This document shows positions 13,355 through 64,000 of a stretch of 64,000 bases of DNA, piece by piece. Position 1 is the stretch's first letter; each line of letters begins with the position of its first letter. Under the pieces are notes generated by a model. That model had not been told where the DNA came from. It ran no database searches and worked only from the letters and a program-made list of their open reading frames with translations. Both the position numbers and the translations under genes were made by a program. Source of the stretch: Methanolobus zinderi (GTDB lineage: Archaea > Halobacteriota > Methanosarcinia > Methanosarcinales > Methanosarcinaceae); contig NZ_CP058215.1 in NCBI RefSeq assembly GCF_013388255.1, positions 2,409,332 through 2,473,331 of the forward strand, read 5' to 3'.

Positions 13355-14569
13355 TTAATATTTTGCCTCTTCCTTAGCTAATTCTGCGAGTTTCTGTCCG
13401 ACAGCCTTGCAGTCCTCAAGATCTTCCTCGAATGGACGGAATTTAACCTGAAGACTTTCCACAGGCATTTCAAATCTTGCGGATTCCAGCTCCTTTTCCA
13501 TACCCTTAACAGCTCCTCCTCCCCATCCGTAGGAACCGAACAGGAAGAACTTCTTGCCCTTTGGCCGGAGTCCCGTCATATATGTGAGAAAACCGGAGAT
13601 CGTATAGAACATCTTATTGTTCATTGTAGGCGATCCGATGGCAATAACGGGAGACTCCATGACCTCTTTCATGGTCATGCTCCAGTCATTCTTTCTAAGA
13701 TGGCGCAGCCTGACCTCCACACCTGCGGAACGTACACCCTCTACTATTTCCTTTGCCATCTTCTCGGTACTGCCCCACATGGTATCATACAGGACCAATA
13801 CCTTCTCCGAAGTTTCTCCCTTTGCCCATCGTCCATAAGCTTCTATAACCTTTGCCGGGTCTTTCCGCCATATGACTCCGTGGGCAGGTGCTATCATTAT
13901 ATCCGTACCGATACCCAGTTCACCCAGCTTGTCAACATACTTCAGGATCTGGGAGCTGAAAGGAAGCAGTATATTGGCATAGTAGATGGCAGCATCTTCC
14001 ATCACATCCTCTACCTCATCATCAAAACGCTTTGATGTGGCGATATGCTGACCGAAGGCATCATTGGAGAATAGGATCTTATCCTCCTTGACATATGTCT
14101 GCATACTGTCCGGCCAGTGAAGCATGGTGGCCTCAATGAACATCAATGTCCGCTTTCCAAGGCTCAGCTCATCTCCCGTGCCTACGACCTGCAGGTCCCA
14201 GTCATCAAATCCTTCTTCCTTATAATACTCATAAAGACCTGTTTTGCCCTTGGATGATGCAAATAATTTCGCATCAGGTGCAATCTCCATTATTCTGGAT
14301 ATGGAACTGGAATGATCCATTTCAACATGGTTCGAGATAACATAGTCGATCTTTGACGGATCAACTATCTGGCTTATGCGCTTTAGCATTTCTTCTGCAA
14401 AGGGCGCCTTTACCGTATCTATCAATGCGATCTTCTCGTCAATCACCAGGTATGCATTGTAGCTTCCACCCTTGGGAGTCTCATAACCATGGAAATCACG
14501 CAGGTTCCAGTCTACAACACCCACCCAGTAGATACCTTCGGCCACTTTCAATGGCTCATAATCGTCCAT
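13355..14569 (-). CDS. fprA: FprA-type flavodiiron protein (F420H2 oxidase)
   Basis: A 404-residue A-type flavoprotein. The N-terminal metallo-beta-lactamase-like domain has the full diiron ligand set: H81-x-E83-x-D85-H86, H151, D170 and H230. The C-terminal flavodoxin domain (about 257-400) has the FMN phosphate loop YDTMWGSTEKMA. In methanogens FprA oxidises F420H2 and reduces O2 to water. The rubrerythrin gene lies 13 bases upstream on the same strand, so the two form an oxygen and peroxide detoxification unit, with the FTR-like gene 67 bases downstream. Confidence 0.94.
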   Translation of the reverse strand: MDDYEPLKVAEGIYWVGVVDWNLRDFHGYETPKGGSYNAYLVIDEKIALIDTVKAPFAEEMLKRISQIVDPSKIDYVISNHVEMDHSSSISRIMEIAPDAKLFASSKGKTGLYEYYKEEGFDDWDLQVVGTGDELSLGKRTLMFIEATMLHWPDSMQTYVKEDKILFSNDAFGQHIATSKRFDDEVEDVMEDAAIYYANILLPFSSQILKYVDKLGELGIGTDIMIAPAHGVIWRKDPAKVIEAYGRWAKGETSEKVLVLYDTMWGSTEKMAKEIVEGVRSAGVEVRLRHLRKNDWSMTMKEVMESPVIAIGSPTMNNKMFYTISGFLTYMTGLRPKGKKFFLFGSYGWGGGAVKGMEKELESARFEMPVESLQVKFRPFEEDLEDCKAVGQKLAELAKEEAKY

Positions 14570-14582
14570 AGGAATCCCCTAC

Positions 14583-15071
14583 TCATGTCTGCATTCTGAA
14601 CTGGGTTGCGTAGTCAAGGAGCTCTTCAATTATCCTGTAATGGCTCCTCTCCACATCTTCCATGTTTTCGAAGAATTCTTTCTGTTCCTGATCGGTGGCT
14701 TTCTTTGCAAGCTCTTCGTAGAAGAATTCGCTCTTGTGTTCGAATCTGAGCGCGCCGAGCAACACTCCCACCTCTTCGAGTGTTTTATCTGAGAACTCCT
14801 CCCTGAAAGAAGCCTTGAAGTCAGGATACTCAAACTCAACAACAGGTGCTTTCTTGCTTTCCCTGTACTGCCTCAGGTATTCGGCATGTTTTTTCTCTTC
14901 GTCAGCAAGGAACTTGTACAGGCTCTTACCAGTCTCATGCTCCATACTTGAAGCCCTTTCGAGGTAGTACTCCCTTCCTTCTTCCTCCAGTTCAATTGCC
15001 ATGGCAATTGCTTCATCTATCGATTCCAGCCTGTCGAGTTTCTCTGCTATTTCATGTAGAACATCTTTCAT
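14583..15071 (-). CDS. Rubrerythrin-type ferritin-like diiron protein
   Basis: A 162-residue four-helix protein with two ExxH-type helices typical of rubrerythrin or the ferritin-like family (AIELEEEGREYYLERA with FLADEEKKHAEYL; RFEHKSEFFYEELAKKA with ENMEDVERSHYRII). It lacks a rubredoxin domain, so a separate electron donor would be needed for peroxide reduction. First gene of the rbr-fprA pair. Peroxidase activity is inferred from family and neighbourhood. Confidence 0.87.
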   Translation of the reverse strand: MKDVLHEIAEKLDRLESIDEAIAMAIELEEEGREYYLERASSMEHETGKSLYKFLADEEKKHAEYLRQYRESKKAPVVEFEYPDFKASFREEFSDKTLEEVGVLLGALRFEHKSEFFYEELAKKATDQEQKEFFENMEDVERSHYRIIEELLDYATQFRMQT

Positions 15072-15353: not shown

Positions 15354-16457
15354 ATGGACAAGATCAGGATAGCAATTGCAGGTATTGGCAATTGTGCAAG
15401 TTCCCTAATTCAGGGTATCGAATATTATAAATCCAAGGATGAAAACGACGCAATAGGATTAATGCACTGGGATATTGGTGGTTACAAGCCCTTTGATATA
15501 GAAGTGGTCGCAGCCTTTGACATCGATAAGCGCAAGGTAGGAAAGGATGTTTCAGAGGCTATATATGAGCTGCCCAACTGTACTGCTGTTTTTTGCCCTG
15601 ATGTCCCGAAAGCGGATGTAAAGGTCAGAATGGGCTGTGTTCTTGATGGCTTTTCAGAGCACATGAATACTTATGATGAAAAAAGGACATTCTTATTATC
15701 AGACGAACCGGAAGCAACAAAGGAAGAGATCATAAAAGAGTTGCGTGACTCCGGTGCCGAGATACTTCTGAACTACCTCCCGGTAGGTTCCGAGGAAGCA
15801 ACCCGTTTCTATATGGACTGTGCACTGGAAGCAGGAGTCGCATGCATCAACAATATGCCGGTATTTATCGCAAGTGACCCCACATGGGCAAAAAGGTTCG
15901 AGGAAAAGGGCATACCCATCATAGGCGACGATATCAAAGCCCAGCTTGGTGCTACCATCACCCACAGAACCCTTGCAGATCTCTTTAACAAGCGCGGTGT
16001 CAGACTCGACAGGACATACCAGCTCAACACAGGCGGTAACACCGATTTCCTTAACATGCTCAACAGGAGCAGGCTGGCATCAAAGAAGGAGTCAAAGACA
16101 GAGGCCGTACAGTCGGTGGTCGCCCAGAGAATGGATGATGATGACATACACGTCGGACCAAGCGACTACGTACCCTGGCAGAACGACAACAAGGTATGTT
16201 TCCTGAGAATGGAAGGCAGGCTCTTCGGCGATGTACCCATGAACCTTGAGCTGCGTCTTTCAGTGGAGGATTCACCGAATTCCGCAGGTGTTGTCATTGA
16301 CGCCATCAGGTGCTGTAAACTTGCCTTAAACCGTGGCACAGGTGGTATCCTTTATTCACCTTCGTCTTATTTCATGAAGCACCCGCCAAAGCAGTTCACC
16401 GACGATGAAGCCCACAAGATGACACTTGAGTTCATATGTGGGGAACGTCCCAATTAA
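15354..16457 (+). CDS. ino1: Inositol-3-phosphate synthase
   Basis: A 367-residue myo-inositol-1-phosphate synthase of the short archaeal/actinobacterial class. It converts glucose-6-phosphate to inositol-3-phosphate using NAD+, feeding archaeal inositol lipids or solutes. The N-terminal NAD motif is GIGNCAS. The catalytic core includes [33 protein letters not shown] and [15 protein letters not shown] 15354 has GAGGT upstream and stands alone after a long intergenic region with its own promoter. The DUF429 gene follows after 12 bases and is probably co-transcribed. Confidence 0.94.
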
Positions 16458-16469
16458 AGCAGATCGATC

Positions 16470-17291
16470 ATGGACCCTGCTGAAGTAAGACACCGGATAT
16501 ACGGTGTTGACTTCAGTGGCTCGAAGACAGCGTGTAAGAAAATATGGATCAGCGAAGCTTTTGTTCAGGAAGGTAAGCTCAGGATACTTCGGACCTTCCC
16601 GATAGGGGATCTCGTCAACGGAAAGAAAAAGGACAGGGATGCATGTCTCAAAGCCCTGAGAGAGCTGATCAGTGGCAGTGAAAAAAGTGTTTTCGGGATG
16701 GATTTCCCTTTCAGCCTGCCCCGAGAATTGTTATTCACCGATACCTGGGAATCTTTCGTATCAGGATTTGCTGACAGATACAGTTCCCCGGAACAGTTCC
16801 GCAACCAGATGCGGACATACACACAGAACAAAGAGCTCAAACGCCTGACAGATTCCGAGGTAAAGGCTCCTTTTTGCGTATACAACCTCAGACTGTACCG
16901 CCAGACCTATTATGGGATCCGTGACGTACTCGGACCACTGCTGGAAGAGGAGAGTGCCTGCATGATACCAATGCACAGGACTGTTGAAGATAAGCCCTGG
17001 CTCATGGAGATATGTCCGGCATCCACTTTGAAAAATGAAGGACTCTATATTCCATACAAGGGAAAATCCCCTGAGAAAAAAAGAGCAAGGGAATATATCC
17101 TTGCAGAAATGCAAGAACGTGGGATCACCATGGAAGCCCGTATACGGGAGCTTATAATAGGCAATACCGACGGCGATGCACTCGACAGCATGATCGCGGC
17201 ATTTGCCACTTCAAGGGCGATCCCAGGACTTGAAAATACTCTTAAGACGATCCGGTCGATCTATCTTCTGGAAGGATATACTTTCTTTTGA
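16470..17291 (+). CDS. DUF429 family protein
   Basis: A 273-residue protein that starts with the DUF429 hallmark GVDFSGSK and later has GMDFPFSLP, MEICPASTLK and NTDGDALDSMIAAFATSRA. The alternating strands and acidic motifs resemble an RNase H-like nuclease or ATPase fold, but no activity is established. It follows ino1 by 12 bases, which suggests co-transcription and not necessarily shared function. Confidence 0.82.
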   Translation: MDPAEVRHRIYGVDFSGSKTACKKIWISEAFVQEGKLRILRTFPIGDLVNGKKKDRDACLKALRELISGSEKSVFGMDFPFSLPRELLFTDTWESFVSGFADRYSSPEQFRNQMRTYTQNKELKRLTDSEVKAPFCVYNLRLYRQTYYGIRDVLGPLLEEESACMIPMHRTVEDKPWLMEICPASTLKNEGLYIPYKGKSPEKKRAREYILAEMQERGITMEARIRELIIGNTDGDALDSMIAAFATSRAIPGLENTLKTIRSIYLLEGYTFF

Positions 17292-17312: not shown

Positions 17313-17858
17313 TTAGCTTTTCTCTATTCCCACGATATCGTAAATATCCTCAGGGCTTGAAAGGATGGTGATATTTTCCATCTGTCCGAGTTTTTCAGTG
17401 TTTGTCACATCGACTTCCCTCATCTTGAGCTCCATCTCCCTTCCTTCGGGTGAGTAGGTCTTGACACTGCCTCGTTCACGATCAACAGCAAGCACATAAA
17501 TAGGCGTTTGCCCCTTTGCTGTCTGTGATACTGCATTGGTGACAAGGGTATCTGCAATACCATGGACTAACTTGGCAACGGTGTTTGCCGTGGCCGGAGC
17601 TATTATCAGGGCATCATAATATCCCACCTGGAGCGGGCCTGCAATGAAAGGTGAGTTGGGACCGCCCTCTGTCTTGAAGTTGGGGAAGTCTCTTTGTATA
17701 CTATCCCACATGCGGTACCATTTCATCACCACTTCACCGTCCTTTGAAAGGAAGACCATCATTTCTATATCGGTCCTGTTCTTGATATCCCTCATTACCT
17801 CGTATGTTTCCTTGATCAGATCTCCGGAACCTGTTATGCCCCATGCTATCCTTTTCAT
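17313..17858 (-). CDS. afpA: Archaeoflavoprotein AfpA
   Basis: A 181-residue FMN protein of the flavoprotein family that includes AfpA and dihydromethanopterin reductase DmrB. It starts AWGITGSGDLIKETYEV and contains the flavin-binding APATANTVAKLVHGIADTLVTNA. In Archaeoglobus, AfpA accepts electrons from ferredoxin and passes them to Isf; finding it last in an operon with a ferredoxin and Isf supports that same chain here. A DmrB-like role is less likely given these partners. Strong ribosome-binding site AGGAGG before ATG 17858. Confidence 0.87.
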   Translation of the reverse strand: MKRIAWGITGSGDLIKETYEVMRDIKNRTDIEMMVFLSKDGEVVMKWYRMWDSIQRDFPNFKTEGGPNSPFIAGPLQVGYYDALIIAPATANTVAKLVHGIADTLVTNAVSQTAKGQTPIYVLAVDRERGSVKTYSPEGREMELKMREVDVTNTEKLGQMENITILSSPEDIYDIVGIEKS

Positions 17859-17907
17859 TCAAATCCTCCTGTTTATTTACTGACTGTTAAAGCTATTAAA
17901 ATGATAT

Positions 17908-18615
17908 TCAATATCCTGTAATAGATTCCTTTTTTATGTTCTCATCAGGTACACCGATCTGACTCAGCATTTCCAGCATGGATTCGACCATGCGTGGAGG
18001 GCCGCAGACAAAGAAGCGCCTTGTCCTGTAATCCGGAACCTGGTCCTCAATTATATTCGCATTTATCCTTTCACGGGAACCTTTCCAGCCCTCAGAGGCT
18101 CTTGTCAGGGTCTGGAACACCAGAAGATTACGATTTTCATGCATCATGTCCTGCAATTCTTTCCAGAATACCATATCATCCTCTGTTCTGTCACTGCATA
18201 TCATTACCACATCAGTGTCCAGCTTCATATCGGTGCAATATTTACAGATACTTCTCATGGGAGTGATACCAATACCACCACTCAGAAGGACTATCCTGTC
18301 ATATTCTCCTTCAAAGGTCATCTTCCCGTAGGGTCCGCTGATACTTGCAGTATCGCCCACACTCATGGAATCAAGAGCATTGGAATATTCATGCCCTGTC
18401 AGTTTTTTTGTGAACTCGATGTGGTCCTCTTCAGTCGGGCTGCTCGAGAGACTGAAAGGTTTGCTGGTCTTCTTTTCGGCTACATTTATTGTAACTATTA
18501 TATACTGTCCTGCCTTGAAATCAAAATCATCAGGTCGTTTGAACCTGAAGCTCTTCACGTTTTTACTGCGCGGTAAAATTTCAATTACCGCTTCCTCAAA
18601 TTTCAAGATACTCAC
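17908..18615 (-). CDS. FNR-like FAD/NAD(P)-binding oxidoreductase
   Basis: A 235-residue ferredoxin-reductase-type protein. Residues 1-100 form the FAD barrel, with a KPFSLSSSP motif equivalent to RxYS. Residues 105-235 form the NAD(P) domain, with GGIGITPMRS and FVCGPPRMVESM. The protein ends in a C-terminal tyrosine, the position that stacks on flavin in plant-type FNRs. No 2Fe-2S domain is fused, so its partner is probably the ferredoxin or Isf made by the same operon. Its GTG start overlaps the isf stop (GTGA). Confidence 0.88.
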   Translation of the reverse strand: MSILKFEEAVIEILPRSKNVKSFRFKRPDDFDFKAGQYIIVTINVAEKKTSKPFSLSSSPTEEDHIEFTKKLTGHEYSNALDSMSVGDTASISGPYGKMTFEGEYDRIVLLSGGIGITPMRSICKYCTDMKLDTDVVMICSDRTEDDMVFWKELQDMMHENRNLLVFQTLTRASEGWKGSRERINANIIEDQVPDYRTRRFFVCGPPRMVESMLEMLSQIGVPDENIKKESITGY

Positions 18616-19238
18616 CCCTGTTGTATCTTTTTCATCAGTTGTGCGGTTTCCATTAGTTTCTTCATTGTCCTTCGAAGGCTTCTCAGACCTTCGGAATCCT
18701 CAGCCACTCCTTCCGCACCCTTATCCTGTGACCAGAATGTTCCTCCGAAGTTAGAGCCAAATGACCCTCCACCTATGGGTATCATTTCACTGATAACATA
18801 AAATGCATGTATATCCTGGATCGCTGGTTCCTGCCCGCCTACCCTGTCACCACCCACAGCAGCGGCAGCACCTACCTTGTTAAGAAAAACCTTGGGATCG
18901 CGTGCAACGACTGCACGGCACCTGTCCAGTATTGTTTTTGTCTGGGCACTCAATGTGCCCTGGTATACCGGAGTGCCGATGATCCAGGCATCGGCCCATA
19001 TCATTTTCTCATAGAGATCCACAATATCATCCTTGTGTACACAACCTTTCTTGGTACGCACACAATAATCACAGTGGATACAGAACTTCAGGTTTTTTCC
19101 GCTGGCCGAGAAGTACTCGGTTTCTGCTCCGAATTTTTCCCTTGCATATCGCAGGGCCTCATTCACTACATAATCCGTGGCCTTTTTCCTAGGACTTCCT
19201 GATATTCCAAGCAAACGGATACCTTGATCTTCTGACAT
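18612..19238 (-). CDS. Iron-sulfur flavoprotein (Isf)
   Basis: A 208-residue flavodoxin-fold protein with the compact cysteine motif that defines Isf: C53-x2-C56-x2-C59-x6-C66, binding one [4Fe-4S] cluster. The FMN-binding GISGSPRKKATDY precedes it and GTPVYQGTLSAQTKTILDR follows. Methanosarcina Isf takes electrons from ferredoxin and can reduce O2 or peroxide. It overlaps the FNR gene by four bases. The position between ferredoxin and AfpA genes supports a shared electron pathway. Confidence 0.9.
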   Translation of the reverse strand: MSEDQGIRLLGISGSPRKKATDYVVNEALRYAREKFGAETEYFSASGKNLKFCIHCDYCVRTKKGCVHKDDIVDLYEKMIWADAWIIGTPVYQGTLSAQTKTILDRCRAVVARDPKVFLNKVGAAAAVGGDRVGGQEPAIQDIHAFYVISEMIPIGGGSFGSNFGGTFWSQDKGAEGVAEDSEGLRSLRRTMKKLMETAQLMKKIQQG

Positions 19239-19260
19239 GATGGCACTCCGATATCAATAT

Positions 19261-19452
19261 TCACTCAAGGCTTATTGCCTCTGTGGGACATGCATCCACA
19301 CAGATTCCGCATTCCACACAATCATCCGGACGTGCGATAACGGATTTGAGGTCTCCACTCTCATTCTCTTCGATATCTATTACATCGGTCGGACATGATT
19401 CGGCACATGCGCCGATTCCTTCACATTTGGTCAAATCTACTTCTGGTGGCAT
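19261..19452 (-). CDS. Dicluster ferredoxin with an altered first cluster motif
   Basis: A 63-residue ferredoxin. The second motif is canonical (C45-x2-C48-x2-C51-x3-C55-P). The first reads C10-E-G-I13-G-A-C16-A-E-S-C20-P: the second cysteine of the usual CxxCxxC is replaced by Ile13. By analogy with 7Fe ferredoxins, cluster I is probably [3Fe-4S], giving a 3Fe/4Fe protein; this is inferred. Strong GGAGG site upstream. It sits 12 bases after the cytochrome gene and 22 before isf, and is the likely soluble carrier of this operon. Confidence 0.92.
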   Translation of the reverse strand: MPPEVDLTKCEGIGACAESCPTDVIDIEENESGDLKSVIARPDDCVECGICVDACPTEAISLE

Positions 19453-19464
19453 ATTTTTCCTCCT

Positions 19465-20859
19465 TTATCTGTTTTTGAATAAATACACGATAAGTAATAC
19501 CACAACTGTTGCAAGAACACCGAATCCTGGTGTTGATTCAGGCGGGACTCTTTCTTCCGGCGGCGTTGCAGGGTCATATATGACAGCTGATACTTCCTTC
19601 ATGTCTATAACCGGAACCTCATGGACACCTTCCCCGAAGAGATGGTCAATTAATTCCTGGGGAGCAGAACGGTATTTAAGCGTTGCATCAACCGTCAGGG
19701 GATATTCCGCATCTTCAGGCAAAAGGAATGTGTGCTCTTCAGTCACTGTTTCTTTCGGGCCGATCCTGTTATCGGAAAGTACCCTGTCCGCAAGCCAGAA
19801 ACTCAATGTCGCATCCCCCTGAGCATCTCCCAGAACATTGTTATATACCGTATGTGCAGAGACAATCTCTCCTCTAGTATCTGTAGCTCCCGCATTATAT
19901 ATCTCTCGGCCTTCGCCATCAGTAACCTTTACTTCAAGCCATATCTGCCTTATCTCGGAGACACCTGTGGGAATATTATGGCCCGCACCGGAATTTGTAA
20001 TTGAAACCTGCACCGTAACGTTTTCACTTCTGTTCGCGATCTCCGGGGAGTCCATATTGAGCGTTGCAGCCTGCTCGAGCCTCTCGATAGCCATCTCCTT
20101 TTCATTATCAGCATTCAGAATTTCGGTCATGAATGCATTTCCTCCCACAATTCTATGCAGGGAGATATGGTCCCGTCGGGGTGCACCTGATGCGGATCTG
20201 CCCGGATTGGCTTCGAATTCCGTGATACCGGGGGTCATATGACAGTCCTGGCATGTCACATCTTCCTCAGCATATGTACTGTTCTTCCATGCAGGATAGG
20301 TATCATCGATCAGAAGCCCGTTTACAGGATGCGATACCTCATGACACATACCACAGAACTCTGCTCTTGTTTCTAGCTCAAGATATTCAGATTCATGGAA
20401 AGCGGATTCAGAATCCTTAAATGGACCCCATTTCACATCGCCAGGAGTAACTATAAACGGTGCGTTACCCGTACCGTTGCTTGCGGAGACTGTATGACAG
20501 AAATCACAGTTCACTCCTTCCTTCGCGATCTCGCTCAGATGCGAGCCGTCTGCCGGAGGAATCTCTCCCGAGACAACCCCGATGGGAGTATGGCATCGGG
20601 AACAGAAGGAATCCACAAGTCCGTCTGTATCATTACTTGCAGCATCAAATTCCTTAAGGTAAAAAGGGTCGATATAGGCATTGGCGTGCATTGTATCGTC
20701 CCACTGTGAATAAGTGATGCCATGGCACTCCGTGCATCTGTCAGATTCGGAAAAATCCGAAGAGGACAATTCGCCTGATGCTGTTGGTTCTGCTGCATTT
20801 GCAAAACCCAGTAACAGCATGACCAATGCAATAAAAATAAAGACTGATACGTGTTTCAT
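19465..20859 (-). CDS. Secreted pentaheme cytochrome c with PGF-CTERM-like anchor
   Basis: A 464-residue protein. Residues 1-22 form a signal peptide (MKHVSVFIFIALVMLLLGFA). Five CxxCH haem-binding motifs lie at 42-46, 86-90, 118-122, 169-173 and 203-207. The region after about 260 is a beta-rich domain (VTVQVSITNSGAGHNIPTG) seen in cytochrome c554-like multihaem proteins. The last residues TPGFGVLATVVVLLIVYLFKNR form a PGF motif, a hydrophobic span and a basic tail, as in archaeosortase substrates. It should therefore sit on the outer face of the membrane, lipid-anchored. It is the first gene of the operon that continues with ferredoxin, Isf, FNR-like protein and AfpA. Electron-transfer partner or substrate is unknown. 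Confidence 0.9.
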   Translation of the reverse strand: MKHVSVFIFIALVMLLLGFANAAEPTASGELSSSDFSESDRCTECHGITYSQWDDTMHANAYIDPFYLKEFDAASNDTDGLVDSFCSRCHTPIGVVSGEIPPADGSHLSEIAKEGVNCDFCHTVSASNGTGNAPFIVTPGDVKWGPFKDSESAFHESEYLELETRAEFCGMCHEVSHPVNGLLIDDTYPAWKNSTYAEEDVTCQDCHMTPGITEFEANPGRSASGAPRRDHISLHRIVGGNAFMTEILNADNEKEMAIERLEQAATLNMDSPEIANRSENVTVQVSITNSGAGHNIPTGVSEIRQIWLEVKVTDGEGREIYNAGATDTRGEIVSAHTVYNNVLGDAQGDATLSFWLADRVLSDNRIGPKETVTEEHTFLLPEDAEYPLTVDATLKYRSAPQELIDHLFGEGVHEVPVIDMKEVSAVIYDPATPPEERVPPESTPGFGVLATVVVLLIVYLFKNR

Positions 20860-20981: not shown

Positions 20982-21353
20982 TTATTTCAGCATTTTAAGG
21001 GCATCCCTGCATGCTGCAACAGCCGGAGCGCCGGATGTCATGAAAATGACATCCATGGTTTCCATGATCTCGTCCTTTGTTGCGCCATTCTTCAGAGCGC
21101 TCTTCATCTGAGATATGACACAGCGTTCACACTGTTTGGATGCAACAACTGCAAGTGCCATGAGTATCTTTGTTTTGGCCGGAAGCACCCCGTCCTCGAG
21201 GATCTTGTTGTTGCACATATTATACTTCTTCAAGAACTCAGGCTCAAGCTCCCCCAGCGTTTCCAGGATCTGAGGTGTGAAACCCAGTTTATCTGACATG
21301 TCATCGAGTATTTCTTCGTGTCCGCATCCTTTTCCTCTATTTTCTCCACACAT
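20982..21353 (-). CDS. Carboxymuconolactone decarboxylase/AhpD-like protein
   Basis: A 123-residue all-helical protein of the CMD/AhpD family. The redox-active CxxC (CERC) lies in [25 protein letters not shown], the AhpD signature with a nearby glutamate relay. AhpD proteins act as thiol-disulfide reductants or peroxidases. The N-terminus has extra Cys residues ([14 protein letters not shown]) that may bind metal. It lies just upstream of the cytochrome operon on the same strand but is separated by a hairpin. AAGGAGATG ribosome-binding site. Confidence 0.85.
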
Positions 21354-21395: not shown

Positions 21396-21614
21396 TCAGT
21401 CAAATCCGTCTACCATGGTCTGATCCAGGCAATACCGGCACATGAGCCTCGGAAGTCCCTTCGGAAGCCTTTCAACATGAGGAGGCTTTCCTACGGATAC
21501 CGGCAGCTCAAATTCATTTGAATGGTCTACGCAAAGACCCTTGCCGCAAACTATACACACGCATGCTGCTTCAGTTTCTTTTCCGTCTTCCATACAATCA
21601 TAGCATTTCATCAT
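21396..21614 (-). CDS. DUF2180 small zinc-binding protein (copy 1)
   Basis: A 72-residue cysteine-rich protein: CYDC at the N-terminus, CVCIVCGKGLC-x-DH in the middle and CRYC near the end. The pattern predicts two zinc sites and matches the archaeal DUF2180 family, whose function is unknown. It lies eight bases downstream of a paralogue (the next entry), and both precede the AhpD-like gene. AGGTGAT ribosome-binding site. Confidence 0.84.
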   Translation of the reverse strand: MMKCYDCMEDGKETEAACVCIVCGKGLCVDHSNEFELPVSVGKPPHVERLPKGLPRLMCRYCLDQTMVDGFD

Positions 21615-21622
21615 GGTATCAC

Positions 21623-21862
21623 CTAGTAGTTCTCCTTCAGAGCTTCATGGCAGGGCATACATAGCACTTTCTTCCAGTGCTGTACATCCTCATATTTGCA
21701 CTCGACTCCCATGCCGCACTTAAGTTTTATACTGTACTCTCCTTCCCACACAGGAGTGTCTTCCCTGACCAGATGATCCTTACACACTCCTCTCCCGCAT
21801 ACGATACATATAGCCACGGTGTCGCTATCTTTTCCATTTTTTGCGCATTCATAACATTTCAT
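21623..21862 (-). CDS. DUF2180 small zinc-binding protein (copy 2)
   Basis: A 79-residue paralogue of the neighbouring DUF2180 protein, with the same order of motifs: CYEC, CIVCGRGVC-x-DH and CMPC, plus an extra Cys pair around GMGVEC. The start is placed at ATG 21862; GTG 21871 would add three residues. First gene of a probable DUF2180-DUF2180-AhpD transcript. Function unknown; possible metal or redox sensing is speculation. Confidence 0.82.
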   Translation of the reverse strand: MKCYECAKNGKDSDTVAICIVCGRGVCKDHLVREDTPVWEGEYSIKLKCGMGVECKYEDVQHWKKVLCMPCHEALKENY

Positions 21863-21871
21863 TGAAATCAC

Positions 21872-23255
<1,384 letters not shown>

Positions 23256-23284
23256 AACAAAAAAATGAACGTCGGAGGCAATTA

Positions 23285-24313
23285 ATGGCCCATCCAAAAA
23301 TATTAGAGGTCATTGAACACGACGTCTGTACTGCTTGCGGGGCATGTGTATCTACATGCCCTGCCGGTGCTATCACCATGAACAAGCATGCAGAAGTCCG
23401 TGACCCTGATAATTTAGAACTATACGTCAAAGGAGCAGCACCCGATGTATGTGAAGGATGTCTCACATGCGGAAGACTTTGCCCCGTAATTGACGGATAT
23501 GTGGAAGACGAATTTGAAAACGTTAAAGAGTTCTTCGGAGCAAAGAGTAAGATAGAAGGTCAGGATGGTGGTGTAACATCCATTCTGGCAAAGACCCTGC
23601 TTGAGACCGGCACTGTAGACTGTATTGTCGGTATCGCCAAGGATGATAAATGGGGTACCGAGCTTATTCTCATGACCGAACCGGAAGACGTTGACAGGAC
23701 AACAGGTACCAAATATACCTATGACTCAGTCCTTTCAGCTCTGAAAGAACCATTTGAGAAATACGATAAGATCGGTGTTATCGGCGTACCATGCCAGGCA
23801 CACGGAGCACGCCTTATTGTAGAGAATGCAAGCGACAAGATAGTCGTGATTCTTGGTCTGCTGTGTATGGAAAGTTTCTACCATGACGTTATGACCGAGA
23901 AGATCGTTCCTGAGATCATGGGACTGAATCTTGATGATGTCGTTAAGATGGACTTCGGCAAGGGTAAATTCTGGAACTACACCAAAGACGGTGAAGCACA
24001 CAGTGTAAAGATCCCTGAAGTCGCTCACCATGCAAGGAATCCGTGCCACCACTGTTGCGACTACACTTCAGTATCAGCAGATATATCACTGGGATCAGTA
24101 GGTGCTCCTGATGGCTGGAACTCTGTTTTTATACGCACCGATGTGGGCAAGGAGATATTCGAGCTTGTCAAGGATAAAGTAGAGATTATGGAAGATCCGA
24201 AGCCCGGAATAGACCTTGTCAAGAAACTTGCAAAAATGAAACACGATAACAACTCAGAACACTACATGGAAGTGTGTGAGAAGTTCACATTCGATGAATG
24301 TGGCATTCACTGA
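23285..24313 (+). CDS. fpoF: F420H2 dehydrogenase input subunit FpoF
   Basis: A 342-residue iron-sulfur flavoprotein. Two [4Fe-4S] motifs lie at the N-terminus (CTACGACVSTCP from C15, and CEGCLTCGRLCP around residue 57). The FrhB-like domain that binds F420 and FAD follows (GVPCQAHGARLIV, CMESFYHDV, HHCCDYTSVSADISLGSVG). FpoF oxidises F420H2 and passes electrons into the Fpo membrane complex or to ferredoxin. The linkage to mer is the arrangement known in Methanosarcina and supports this over other FrhB paralogues. Confidence 0.94.
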   Translation: MAHPKILEVIEHDVCTACGACVSTCPAGAITMNKHAEVRDPDNLELYVKGAAPDVCEGCLTCGRLCPVIDGYVEDEFENVKEFFGAKSKIEGQDGGVTSILAKTLLETGTVDCIVGIAKDDKWGTELILMTEPEDVDRTTGTKYTYDSVLSALKEPFEKYDKIGVIGVPCQAHGARLIVENASDKIVVILGLLCMESFYHDVMTEKIVPEIMGLNLDDVVKMDFGKGKFWNYTKDGEAHSVKIPEVAHHARNPCHHCCDYTSVSADISLGSVGAPDGWNSVFIRTDVGKEIFELVKDKVEIMEDPKPGIDLVKKLAKMKHDNNSEHYMEVCEKFTFDECGIH

Positions 24314-25428: not shown

Positions 25429-26460
25429 TTATTTTTTTCTCAATTCAAGTTTAATGCTTTCCAGCGGATATCCTGAGTACTGCCTCTTGCTGATATCCCT
25501 ATCCTCATCGATGATACTTATCTCAAAACCTGCCTCTTTTATCAGATCGAGATAATCCTCTTTCATCAATGCACCACCCACACATGAGCATATCAATTCT
25601 TCGTCATTTCTTTCTTCAGATGTCAGCTCTTTCAGAAGCACAATATCGGAGATATACATCCTGCCACCGCCCCTGAGCACACGGTATGCCTCTCTGAAAA
25701 CCCGGGATTTGTCCGGTACGAGGTTTATCACACAGTTACTTATGATCACATCAACAGAATCTGTTTCAACGGGCAGATCTTCAATGTCCCCCATTCTGAA
25801 TTCCACATTATCAAAACCATATCTTTCAGCATTTTTCCGGGCCCTTGCGATCATGTCCTCCGTCATATCCACACCGATGACCTTTCCGGTATTGCCCACC
25901 TTCCTCGCAGCCAGGAAGCTATCGAACCCCGCGCCCGAACCAAGATCAAGAACAATATCACCTTCTTTGATCTCACCAAATGCCGTGGGATTCCCGCATC
26001 CAAGTCCAAGGTTTGCTTCAGAGAATGATTCTGTGTCCTGTTGCGAATAGCCAATGGAAGCTGCCACCTGCTCACTTGTAAGATCATCGCAGCATCCGCA
26101 GCCCTGTACAAGCCCCAGTGCTATCCTGCCGTAATTCTTCTTCACGACATCCTTTTTTGTATCCGCATCCATTTCACTTCCCGAGCAGCATGAATCCACC
26201 TTTTCAACACCGCATTTCTCAAGAGTCTGTTTCATCTTATCATCCCTGATACTGTAAATTACATATCTTCCGTCTTTCTCATACCGGAGGATCCCCGCCT
26301 CGACAAGTACCTTCAGATGTCTGGAGATAGTTGTCTGATCCTTCCCGGAGATCTTTGAAAAATCACAAGCACAGTGGTCTTGCTTCAAAAGACATCCTAC
26401 GATGGTAAGCCTTGTAGGATCCCCCAGAGCTTTGAAGAATCGGGCTTTATCTTCACCCAT
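25429..26460 (-). CDS. arsM: ArsR-ArsM fusion: As(III)-sensing regulator joined to arsenite methyltransferase
   Basis: A 343-residue fusion. Residues 1-90 are an ArsR winged helix ([18 protein letters not shown], a DHCACDF metal box, [23 protein letters not shown]). After a Cys-rich linker (SCCSGSE), residues about 105-343 are an arsenite S-adenosylmethionine methyltransferase: [19 protein letters not shown] for [14 protein letters not shown] and ICSCVGG. These hold the four cysteines that ArsM uses to bind and methylate As(III). I choose ATG 26460, because ATG 26481 lies inside a palindromic operator. The regulator probably represses its own operon with the CopZ-like gene until arsenite binds (inferred). 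Confidence 0.9.
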
Positions 26461-26474
26461 AATAAATGTATATT

Positions 26475-26488
26475 TGTACATATGTACA
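26475..26488. promoter_or_regulatory. Perfect 14-bp palindrome upstream of arsR-arsM
   Basis: TGTACATATGTACA is a perfect palindrome 15 bases upstream of the preferred start and within the AT-rich promoter. It is the natural operator for the ArsR half of the fusion protein. Inferred from symmetry and position. Confidence 0.6.
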
Positions 26489-61128: not shown

Positions 61129-64000
61129 TTATCCGTTCCCTACTGTAATAGTACCCTGATATGTATCTTCTCCGATCTGAACTGTGTATTCGTATACTCC
61201 GGCAGTTCTGAATAGACGACTGTACATGCTACCAGGTTCGATTGAGCCAGAATCGAATGAATCACCGCTTACAGTAGCAGTCTGGCTACCAGTGTTGGTC
61301 CATGTAATACCTTCATCCACAGGAGCACGGATGTTTTCAGGATTAATGCCAGATTCACTGATTGATACCTCGTCAGTATTCACAATTTCACCCTGAACAG
61401 TGGCCTGAGAATCCTCACTGGTATTCTCAGTTGCATTGTCTGAGGTTCCGTCCTCCATTGTTTCATTGGTCATGTTACCGGTTTCATTTTCCATGGCTGT
61501 GTCATCCGTAGTCGCATTCATGTCCCCGGTCGCATTCTCATCCATAGTGGCAGTGTCATTACATGTTACCCATGCGCTGTCGTCTCCCATCTCTCCGATA
61601 TTGTCGAAATCTACTGCGATACTATATCCTTCGTCATTCGGAGGCAGCATACCATCCCATGAATCATCGAAGTAGATTGTTATCGGACCATTGGACATAT
61701 TACTTTGATTGGACATGATCCTCGTGATCACGGCCCCTTCAGCCTGGTTCAATACCGTCCAGTTACCCTGACTATCGGTCACGTTTGTGATCATGTCCCC
61801 TGGTACGTTCAGGAGAATTGTATTGATCACGACATCCGGGAATGTTGCCATTGTCTGGTTGGTGATCTCTATTTCCGCAGTGTAAGGAGTGGTATCATTG
61901 TTGACCATGAGAGTTGCATTCAGGTCTCCCTGATATTCACTTTTGGACTCTTCCACATTGTTAAGGTAGCATGTGACATTATCTGTAACATTGTCAGTTA
62001 CATTGTCCATACCAGCCGGAGGAGTTACTACTCCATCTTCACCTTCTTCCACTTCTTCACACATTCCGATAGTGATCCAGGCATTATCGTCTCCTGTCTC
62101 TCCGATGTTCCGGACGTCTGTTGCAATCACATAGCCTTCTTCATTCTCAGGCAGTGTGCCATTCCAGCTTTCATCGAAGTTTATGGATATCGGACCTGTT
62201 GCATTATCGGCTGCAGTTTCATTCACTGTGACCATTGTAGTGAAATCACCGAATGGATTGTCCATTAGTTCCTCTGTGGTTATCCTCGTAAGGAAGAAAC
62301 CGAATGGATTCTCAGTATCAAGTGCAGTTACTTCCCACTCATTACCAGATGAATCAGTTACATTCGCTATCTGATCAGCCGGGACATTTAGCAGAAATGT
62401 ATTCACAGTTGCATTAGGGAACGTTTCCATGGTATCATTCGTCAGGTTCATCTCAGCCATGTAAGGACTTGACCTTGTATCTATCAATAGTGTAGCATTA
62501 AGCTGACCATCATACTGGCTCTTTTCATCCTCTACTACGTTAAGATAGCACATTGTAAGGTTGCCTTCTGTAACGTTTCCATCAGTTACGTTACCATCGG
62601 TTACATTACCATCAGTTACGTTTCCATCAGTTACGTTTCCATCAGTTACGTTTCCATCAGTTACGTTTCCATCAGTTACGTTTCCATCAGTCACGTTTCC
62701 ATCAGTCACGTTTCCATCAGTCACGTTACCATCTGTCATGTTGCCTTCGGTCACATTACCCGTAGCATCACCATCAGTAACAGTCACATTTGTGATGTTG
62801 TTGTATGCCCATACAGAGGAATCCTCACCCCAGCGAATATGGATTGCCAGGTCGACTTCTTCCGGACATTCATCGTATTCTACTGTGACACCTGTACTTC
62901 TTTCATTTGCTGCGCTTATCTCATAGTAAGCATCACCATTTTCAAACCTGTCAGAATATGGTCCTGGGAAAGGTGTCTCTGTAGAAACGTCCCACTCAAT
63001 TGAAGAGTTGCTGTCTGTTATATTTTCAGATCCCGGCTTGACAAGTATTGATTTAATACCGGGGTTTGCATCTTCAAGACCACCATAGTCGCTTGCATCT
63101 GTAATGTTCAGCTGCCCATCAGTACATGTAACATTAAAGTCAATCATCACACCTTCGGGCAGTTCATCACTCAGCTCCCATTCACCGGTAACGTTGCTAT
63201 CTGTCATATTTTCAGTCATGTTGTCACAATATCCGGTAATCCATGCACTCTCGTTGCCCATTTCTCCGATGTTCTGGACATCCTGGGCTACGATGTATTC
63301 TTCAGCATTTTCCGGCAGTGTACCATTCCAGGTACCATTCATGTAGATAGTTACCGGACCGGTTACGTTGGTTGCGTTCATACCAGGTTCAACTTCTGTT
63401 GCAAAGGTTCCGAAAGGATAAAGGTCTCCGAGTGCTTCCTCTGTTGTTGGTGGGATAAGTACTCCGTCTATTACATGTATTACACCATTGCTGGCCTCAA
63501 CATCAGCAGTAGTTACTGTGGCATTGTTTACCATAATAGTGCCATTTTCTTCAGTTACATTGAGCACTTCTCCCTGAACCGTGGTCAGGTTGTCAGTCTC
63601 AGCAAGAGTAGTAGCGTTGTATTCTCCTTCAACTACGTGATAGGTCAGAACACCGGTTAATGCAGCTTCATCTTCAAGAAGCATATCAAGCGTATTTCCT
63701 GGCAGTCTGTCAAAGGACTTGTTTGTTGGTGCAAACACAGTGTATGGTCCCTCTCCGGCCAGTGTATCTGTAAGATTGGCTGCATCAAGGGCTATGACAA
63801 GTGTCTCGAGTGAGTCAGCACTCGCAGCTACCTCGGCGATTGTTACATTCTCGCCTCCAAGCTCAGCACTTACGTTATCGTCAGGTTCGTCATCAACATT
63901 ATTTACAACCCACTCATTACCAGCTGAGTCTGTTGCATTCATGATCTGGTCAGCAGGAACATTCAGCATGAAACTGCCGAGTGCAGCATCCGGGAAGGTT
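61129..64000 (-). CDS. Giant secreted FAS1-domain surface protein (5' end beyond window)
   Basis: At least 956 residues are visible; the frame continues upstream past 64000. One FAS1 fasciclin domain lies at about residues 45-180 (VTIAEVAASADSLETLVIALDAANLTDTLAGEGPYTVFAPTNKSFDRL). There are four related blocks, the first partial, with LNVPADQI(A/M)NVTDSSGNEW and (W)NGTLPENEEGYVIATDVRNIGE. Between them is a tandem pentapeptide tract. The C-terminal 90 residues form a plastocyanin/cupredoxin-like domain that lacks the copper ligands. NxT/S sequons are abundant, so heavy N-glycosylation is expected. No C-terminal membrane anchor is visible. Likely S-layer-associated or adhesive. Confidence 0.88.
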   Translation of the reverse strand, partial: TFPDAALGSFMLNVPADQIMNATDSAGNEWVVNNVDDEPDDNVSAELGGENVTIAEVAASADSLETLVIALDAANLTDTLAGEGPYTVFAPTNKSFDRLPGNTLDMLLEDEAALTGVLTYHVVEGEYNATTLAETDNLTTVQGEVLNVTEENGTIMVNNATVTTADVEASNGVIHVIDGVLIPPTTEEALGDLYPFGTFATEVEPGMNATNVTGPVTIYMNGTWNGTLPENAEEYIVAQDVQNIGEMGNESAWITGYCDNMTENMTDSNVTGEWELSDELPEGVMIDFNVTCTDGQLNITDASDYGGLEDANPGIKSILVKPGSENITDSNSSIEWDVSTETPFPGPYSDRFENGDAYYEISAANERSTGVTVEYDECPEEVDLAIHIRWGEDSSVWAYNNITNVTVTDGDATGNVTEGNMTDGNVTDGNVTDGNVTDGNVTDGNVTDGNVTDGNVTDGNVTDGNVTDGNVTDGNVTEGNLTMCYLNVVEDEKSQYDGQLNATLLIDTRSSPYMAEMNLTNDTMETFPNATVNTFLLNVPADQIANVTDSSGNEWEVTALDTENPFGFFLTRITTEELMDNPFGDFTTMVTVNETAADNATGPISINFDESWNGTLPENEEGYVIATDVRNIGETGDDNAWITIGMCEEVEEGEDGVVTPPAGMDNVTDNVTDNVTCYLNNVEESKSEYQGDLNATLMVNNDTTPYTAEIEITNQTMATFPDVVINTILLNVPGDMITNVTDSQGNWTVLNQAEGAVITRIMSNQSNMSNGPITIYFDDSWDGMLPPNDEGYSIAVDFDNIGEMGDDSAWVTCNDTATMDENATGDMNATTDDTAMENETGNMTNETMEDGTSDNATENTSEDSQATVQGEIVNTDEVSISESGINPENIRAPVDEGITWTNTGSQTATVSGDSFDSGSIEPGSMYSRLFRTAGVYEYTVQIGEDTYQGTITVGNG
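62566..62760 (-). repeat. Thirteen tandem 15-bp repeats encoding GNVTD sequons
   Basis: Thirteen contiguous 15-bp units encode GNVTD (with one GNMTD and GNVTE variants), giving an N-x-T glycosylation sequon every five residues. Unit sequences differ slightly (atcagttacgtttcc, atcggttacattacc, atcagtcacgtttcc on the plus strand), and identical units are adjacent, a sign of recent slippage or unequal crossover. It is coding and in frame, so it is not a CRISPR. Confidence 0.95.

Follow-up and report, generated by a model that had tools for sequence, protein, structure and literature searches.

The closest described relative of the genes considered here is a cluster of the methanogen Methanosarcina acetivorans, MA4664/MA3734-3743, which PMC3729527 (citing Lessner and Ferry 2007) presents as a putative oxidative-stress operon, with MA3736 as MdrA and MA3743 as a homolog of the F420H2 oxidase FpaA. 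In this cluster MA3739 is a five-heme cytochrome (PMC6703419), whose M. mazei counterpart, MM_0633, belongs to a cluster that is raised on acetate (PMC4350412) and was deleted in a 2011 thesis on protection from oxygen radicals, as cited in PMC6962339. We analyzed a stretch of 64,000 nucleotides of Methanolobus zinderi (contig NZ_CP058215.1, positions 2,409,332 to 2,473,331; henceforth the window), from a genome comprising one contig of 2.70 Mb, in which five minus-strand open reading frames at 17313-20859 encode, in order of transcription, a pentaheme cytochrome, a ferredoxin, an iron-sulfur flavoprotein (Isf), an FNR-like reductase and the archaeoflavoprotein AfpA. These five genes are a Methanolobus variant of the known, putative oxidative-stress cluster of Methanosarcinaceae and are mostly explained as such; judged by the cytochrome, Methanolobus also supplies the nearest named relatives.

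The M. acetivorans cluster and that of the window have in common, in the same order, mdrA, the pentaheme cytochrome, Isf, AfpA, a rubrerythrin-like gene and a flavodiiron gene. A locus with this content, L090, which we take to be that of M. acetivorans C2A, reads mdrA, superoxide reductase, cytochrome, Isf, AfpA, rubrerythrin-like and flavodiiron, and matches MA4664/MA3734-3743. In contrast to that cluster, the window has ferredoxin and FNR-like genes inserted, and its superoxide reductase is not part of the cluster, the sole Desulfoferrodox gene of the genome lying at ~1.86 Mb; because of this latter difference we regard the locus as a variant and not an exact copy. Further, opposite-strand genes for myo-inositol-1-phosphate synthase (IPS) and a DUF429 protein interrupt the cluster in Methanolobus and its relatives and set the rubrerythrin-like and flavodiiron genes apart, whereas in Methanosarcina these two directly follow afpA. 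An earlier note on this DNA, made from its letters alone, was unaware of any account of precisely this combination; the core, i.e., cytochrome, Isf and AfpA beside oxidative-stress genes, is already described in Methanosarcina, but for the ferredoxin and FNR-like additions we likewise found no description in the open literature.

The order and spacing given in that note are exact to the base, with 12 bases between the cytochrome and ferredoxin genes, 22 between ferredoxin and isf, a 4-base overlap of isf and fnr, and 49 bases between fnr and afpA. Ribosome-binding-site-like AGGAGG or GGAG elements precede the ferredoxin, isf and afpA genes, and scans with sigma-70 and terminator models, which suit archaea poorly, gave no excess over shuffled sequences. 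While the five genes do form one block, its bounds were drawn too narrowly: the full cluster extends past 17313-20859 to include, upstream and likewise on the minus strand, a DUF2180 gene pair and an mdrA-like gene (122 bases from the cytochrome gene) and, downstream beyond IPS and DUF429, the rubrerythrin-like and then the flavodiiron gene, all of them syntenic in relatives. A phage origin was rejected, as there is a single weak, partial phage match.

The cytochrome is present in 104 of the 186 genomes of the order, and the order mdrA-cyt-isf-afpA is kept in all 47 family cytochrome loci in which the whole region is present (hand count). The family-wide arrangement is DUF2180-DUF2180-mdrA-cyt-(fd)-isf-(fnr)-afpA-rubrerythrin-flavodiiron, which recurs in dozens of genomes at cytochrome identities as low as ~50%, far beyond chance. 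The conservation of gene order that the earlier note had proposed as a check is borne out, with the exact five-gene order seen in ~21 of these 47 loci, from the genus Methanolobus and two others. The ferredoxin gene is absent from the cluster in several genera, and both it and fnr are absent in Methanosarcina-type loci and their near relatives; being gained and lost by lineage while mdrA-cyt-isf-afpA stays constant, they are the variable part of the system. A distant FNR ortholog is found elsewhere in some of the genomes whose cluster has neither gene. Genes for handling reactive oxygen species (ROS) are also placed inside the cluster in a lineage-specific manner, e.g., rubrerythrin between fnr and afpA, or superoxide reductase ahead of the cytochrome. 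The cytochrome itself is separable: in two loci of the same genus (L068, L069) it is reduced to a remnant beside a retained fd-isf-fnr-afpA, and isf-afpA or isf-fnr-afpA occur without it in six Methanosarcina-type loci (L174-L178 and L187), one Methanohalophilus-type locus (L179), L180 and L181 (genus labels assigned by inference). AfpA is present in 112 of 112 family genomes, with weak matches in a few incomplete ones. The flavoprotein branch is accordingly independent of the cytochrome, which has disappeared on several occasions from loci that retain the flavoprotein genes.

Since the genes constitute a lineage version of the Methanosarcina oxygen-stress cluster, removal of O2 and its by-products is a likelier function than the exchange of current with the outside. 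We hence favor, with a probability of roughly 0.7, a cluster for oxygen/ROS defense with an inner flavoprotein branch and an outer cytochrome branch, which are co-regulated and do not form one wire across the membrane. This agrees with one of the two options of the earlier note, a detoxification system with parts on either side of the membrane, which draws support from the MdrA, rubrerythrin, flavodiiron and superoxide reductase neighbors and from the published name of the cluster (PMC3729527). We infer that on the inner side the FNR-like protein would draw electrons from NAD(P)H and hand them to the dedicated ferredoxin, which in turn would supply AfpA and Isf for the disposal of O2 and H2O2. 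The neighboring flavodiiron protein is predicted to use F420H2 for the reduction of O2, while peroxide and disulfide damage would fall to rubrerythrin and MdrA. On the outer side, the presumably membrane-anchored cytochrome, facing the S-layer space, might reduce or scavenge O2, superoxide or peroxide, or feed electrons to a scavenger, and would itself receive electrons either from the methanophenazine chain or from a different donor in the membrane; regulation would be common to both branches.

The inner branch has a precedent in the ferredoxin-AfpA-Isf chain of the Ferry laboratory, where AfpA reportedly accepts electrons from ferredoxin (the 2004 work of Ding and Ferry). The same three protein families are adjacent here, and in distinction to that chain, the operon brings in a ferredoxin of its own, altered in cluster I, as well as an NAD(P)H-type reductase. 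If the defense role is true, this suggests that in Methanolobus the AfpA-Isf pair gained an exclusive supply of NAD(P)H and ferredoxin. AfpA matches TIGR02699 (E 1e-78; 262.9 bits against a curated cut-off of 192.45), and Isf displays an FMN_red domain (E 2e-32) and a compact cysteine motif, CIHCDYCVRTKKGC, of the form CX2CX2CX4-7C. The ferredoxin is indeed a variant, as the earlier note had claimed: in nearly every ortholog the cysteines of cluster I follow the pattern CX5CX3CP, with the second Cys absent (the copy in L067 looks degraded), which makes a conserved 3Fe-4S/4Fe-4S ferredoxin likely, with cluster I, going by its cysteines, probably of the 3Fe-4S type. As for the disposal of oxidants, Isf reacts with O2 and H2O2 according to the title of Cruz and Ferry 2006, as cited in PMC4338226, and F420H2-oxidase-type flavodiiron proteins reduce O2 (PMC4338226 and references therein).

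The cytochrome matches the Cytochrome_C554 domain, and all ten of its Cys residues sit in the five CxxCH motifs. While all the families assigned in the earlier note hold, the PGF-type anchor falls under the cut-off (PGF-CTERM, TIGR04126, 19.8 bits against a curated 24.5); archaeosortase A (ArtA) is encoded in the genome (274.6 bits). An AlphaFold2 model of the protein (predicted local distance difference test score, pLDDT, 91) matches the pentaheme cytochrome c552 of Thermochromatium tepidum (PDB 5ze8) with a VIA Z of 31.2 and a root-mean-square deviation of 2.8 A over 339 residues (span 34-427), i.e., the pentaheme domain and the beta-sandwich align as one fold; a profile search likewise links the two (E 2.6e-28), and the Foldseek matches beyond the first rank are chiefly generic beta-sandwiches. 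The two share a common fold across both domains but only ~20% identity, and the alignment with the bacterial protein stops before the C-terminal anchor helix present here. Candidate distal heme ligands, judged by conservation alone, are the invariant or nearly invariant His58, His155, His235 (Met in four actinobacterial sequences) and His294, together with His177 (conserved in 35 of 39 sequences). The heme region and a GH-xx-P loop of the beta-sandwich also align with the multiheme cytochrome c selenoprotein MccSep (PDB 9wt8) and the ExtKL model NF040886, although the score against the latter (71.7) is far from its cut-off (250) and the selenocysteine position of MccSep is Val300 here. As this selenocysteine falls in that loop, just past the residue aligned with His294, the alignment hints that the loop may border a reactive heme.

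Beyond the family, homologs of the cytochrome often keep similar company in ANME-1, Methanoperedens-type archaea and some bacteria. In the ANME-1-type Methanolliviera (L104), the cytochrome gene shares 4 bases with a ferritin/rubrerythrin-like gene, and superoxide reductase comes 13 bases after the cytochrome gene, beyond which lie catalase, peroxiredoxin, ferritin, flavodoxin and flavodiiron genes. Superoxide reductase adjoins the cytochrome gene in L106 and L108, a flavodiiron gene in L107 and L044-L046, mdrA in L039, L040 and L102, and isf-afpA in another ANME-1 locus (L105). Across 63 bacterial loci, rubrerythrin/peroxiredoxin matches are 10.6 times denser within 1 kb of the cytochrome gene than farther away (10 in 118 kb against 5 in 628 kb), at a nominal p of 1.4e-5 that overstates the support, as the ten cases fall in few clades. 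Among 90 immediate bacterial neighbors, a Pfam tally gave rubrerythrin 4 and AhpC 2, with HtrA-type proteases (7) and cbb3-type cytochromes (6) being commoner, and the ROS link is hence a minority pattern in bacteria. This company of ROS enzymes across phyla, for which we found no statement in the open literature, is the most useful new observation here. It leads us to a tentative proposal, which we hold to be somewhat less than even in its chances: that the pentaheme cytochrome represents a widespread, unrecognized family whose members face outward and scavenge oxidants, as reductases of O2, superoxide or peroxide, in anaerobic archaea and certain bacteria; they would act in concert with superoxide reductase, rubrerythrin, peroxiredoxin and flavodiiron systems and would earlier have been taken for cytochromes of extracellular electron transfer. 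If the oxygen-defense reading of the cluster is right, a recurrent candidate for electron exchange in methanogens (MA3739, MM_0633) moves to oxygen defense, and strict anaerobes defending the outer face of their membrane become a testable case.

Several observations weigh against the oxygen-defense reading. The bacterial enrichment carries no phylogenetic correction, with actinobacteria accounting for six of the ten cases, and most bacterial homologs have no rubrerythrin/peroxiredoxin neighbor; the ligand candidates suffice for mostly bis-His hemes, which is as compatible with an electron carrier as with an enzyme; we found no oxidant-sensitivity phenotype of a cytochrome mutant in the open literature, a scope outside which the 2011 M. 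mazei thesis falls; and PMC8546582 describes the proteins encoded by MA3739 and comparable genes as unverified in M. acetivorans. In addition, the MA3739 transcript rises 4.1-fold in cells respiring anthraquinone-2,6-disulfonate (AQDS; PMC6703419) and is raised in direct interspecies electron transfer (DIET; PMC8546582), which, with the response of the M. mazei cluster to acetate, indicates that regulation is not simply by oxygen. These transcript changes, the exported multiheme nature of the cytochrome and the recovery of the M. mazei product in the surface/membrane fraction (PMC6962339) also speak for extracellular electron exchange, the other option of the earlier note, in which the surface cytochrome would connect minerals or partners to the inner ferredoxin/flavoprotein chain through a further membrane link. 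However, deletions of MA3739 (PMC6703419, PMC8546582) and MM_0633 (PMC6962339) leave AQDS reduction, DIET (uptake from Geobacter) and cathodic uptake intact, an outcome that an oxygen-defense role, if right, explains, and the five-heme homolog of M. mazei zm-15 goes down with ferrihydrite (PMC11921357). Several lineages retain the flavoprotein genes but lack the cytochrome, and the genome has a separate MmcA-like gene for an exported multiheme protein (five CxxCH, CASTCH and CDSAGCH) upstream of rnfB near 0.50 Mb, while the window lies at 2.43 Mb. M. acetivorans MmcA (MA0658), likewise an exported multiheme c-type cytochrome of the Methanosarcinaceae, has seven hemes, lies beside rnf and is required for extracellular electron transfer, whereas the cytochrome of the window has five CxxCH motifs and lies away from rnf. 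In light of the published knockouts and this separate gene we reject electron exchange as the main role and hold it to be quite unlikely overall.

The tight spacing and conserved order of the genes could instead reflect one transmembrane detoxification wire, with cytosolic NAD(P)H, ferredoxin, AfpA and Isf feeding the outer cytochrome via a further membrane protein, such that oxidants are reduced outside. A suggestion cited in PMC6962339 does associate the M. mazei cytochrome with flavoproteins and iron-sulfur flavoproteins in a complex bound to the membrane, and isf-afpA-cyt recurs in the ANME-1 locus L105; yet the cluster shows no membrane protein in any lineage examined, the cytochrome alone is lost repeatedly, and the stretches analyzed around it in the ANME-1-type L104 and Methanoperedens-type loci hold no isf/afpA match, making such a wire unlikely. 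A detoxification of reactive nitrogen species (nitrite, hydroxylamine, nitric oxide) in place of oxygen species would fit the flavodiiron neighbor, whose best NCBIfam models are nitric oxide-reductase flavorubredoxins at scores under the cut-off, and the distant likeness of the cytochrome to cytochrome c554 and its weak, local likeness to NrfA. However, the cytochrome has no CxxCK catalytic heme, the classical NrfA motif, on which ground a nitrite reductase identity was rejected, and its recurrent partners, superoxide reductase, catalase, peroxiredoxin and rubrerythrin, point to oxygen species; we consider this substrate range very unlikely.

Table 1. Genes of the cluster in the window and of the interrupting segment (window coordinates).
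Feature	Coordinates	Strand	Remarks
Flavodiiron protein, F420H2-oxidase type	13355..14569	-	ODP beta-lactamase and flavodoxin domains; syntenic with MA3743
Rubrerythrin-family (ferritin-like) protein	14583..15071	-	in same cluster in Methanosarcina
IPS and DUF429 genes	15354..17291	+	outside the system; split the cluster here, not in Methanosarcina
AfpA archaeoflavoprotein	17313..17858	-	TIGR02699
FNR-like FAD/NAD(P) reductase, 235 aa	17908..18615	-	FAD and NAD domains; without own iron-sulfur domain
Isf	18612..19238	-	FMN_red domain and CX2CX2CX6C motif
Ferredoxin, 63 aa	19261..19452	-	cluster I CX5CX3CP without second Cys; cluster II complete
Pentaheme c-type cytochrome, exported, 464 aa	19465..20859	-	signal-like helix, 5 CxxCH, C-terminal beta-sandwich, hydrophobic C-terminal helix after PGFG; MA3739/MM_0633 ortholog (synteny, ~50% identity)
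MdrA-like protein	20982..21353	-	carboxymuconolactone decarboxylase/AhpD fold, CERC motif; syntenic with MA3736
DUF2180 small Cys-rich protein 1	21396..21614	-	
DUF2180 small Cys-rich protein 2	21623..21871	-	

The DUF2180 pair leads the cluster in nearly every family locus and perhaps comprises redox or metal sensors. Between the cytochrome and ferredoxin genes, L072 and L075 have ~3.3 kb inserted; the L072 insert carries genes for a cysteine desulfurase and a scaffold-like protein (NifS/IscU). Divergent from the cluster, at 22275-24313, are mer (methylene-tetrahydromethanopterin reductase) and fpoF (an F420H2 dehydrogenase subunit), a neighborhood kept in nearly all family loci and one that F420H2 links to the flavodiiron protein. 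Farther along, 25429-26481 encodes a 350-aa protein, an apparent fusion of an ArsR-type regulator and an S-adenosylmethionine-dependent methyltransferase (arsenite methyltransferase-like), which is kept near the cluster in several relatives, and 61129-63969 encodes a surface protein of 946 aa that combines a long tandem repeat of DGNVT/TDGN with a fasciclin-like region.

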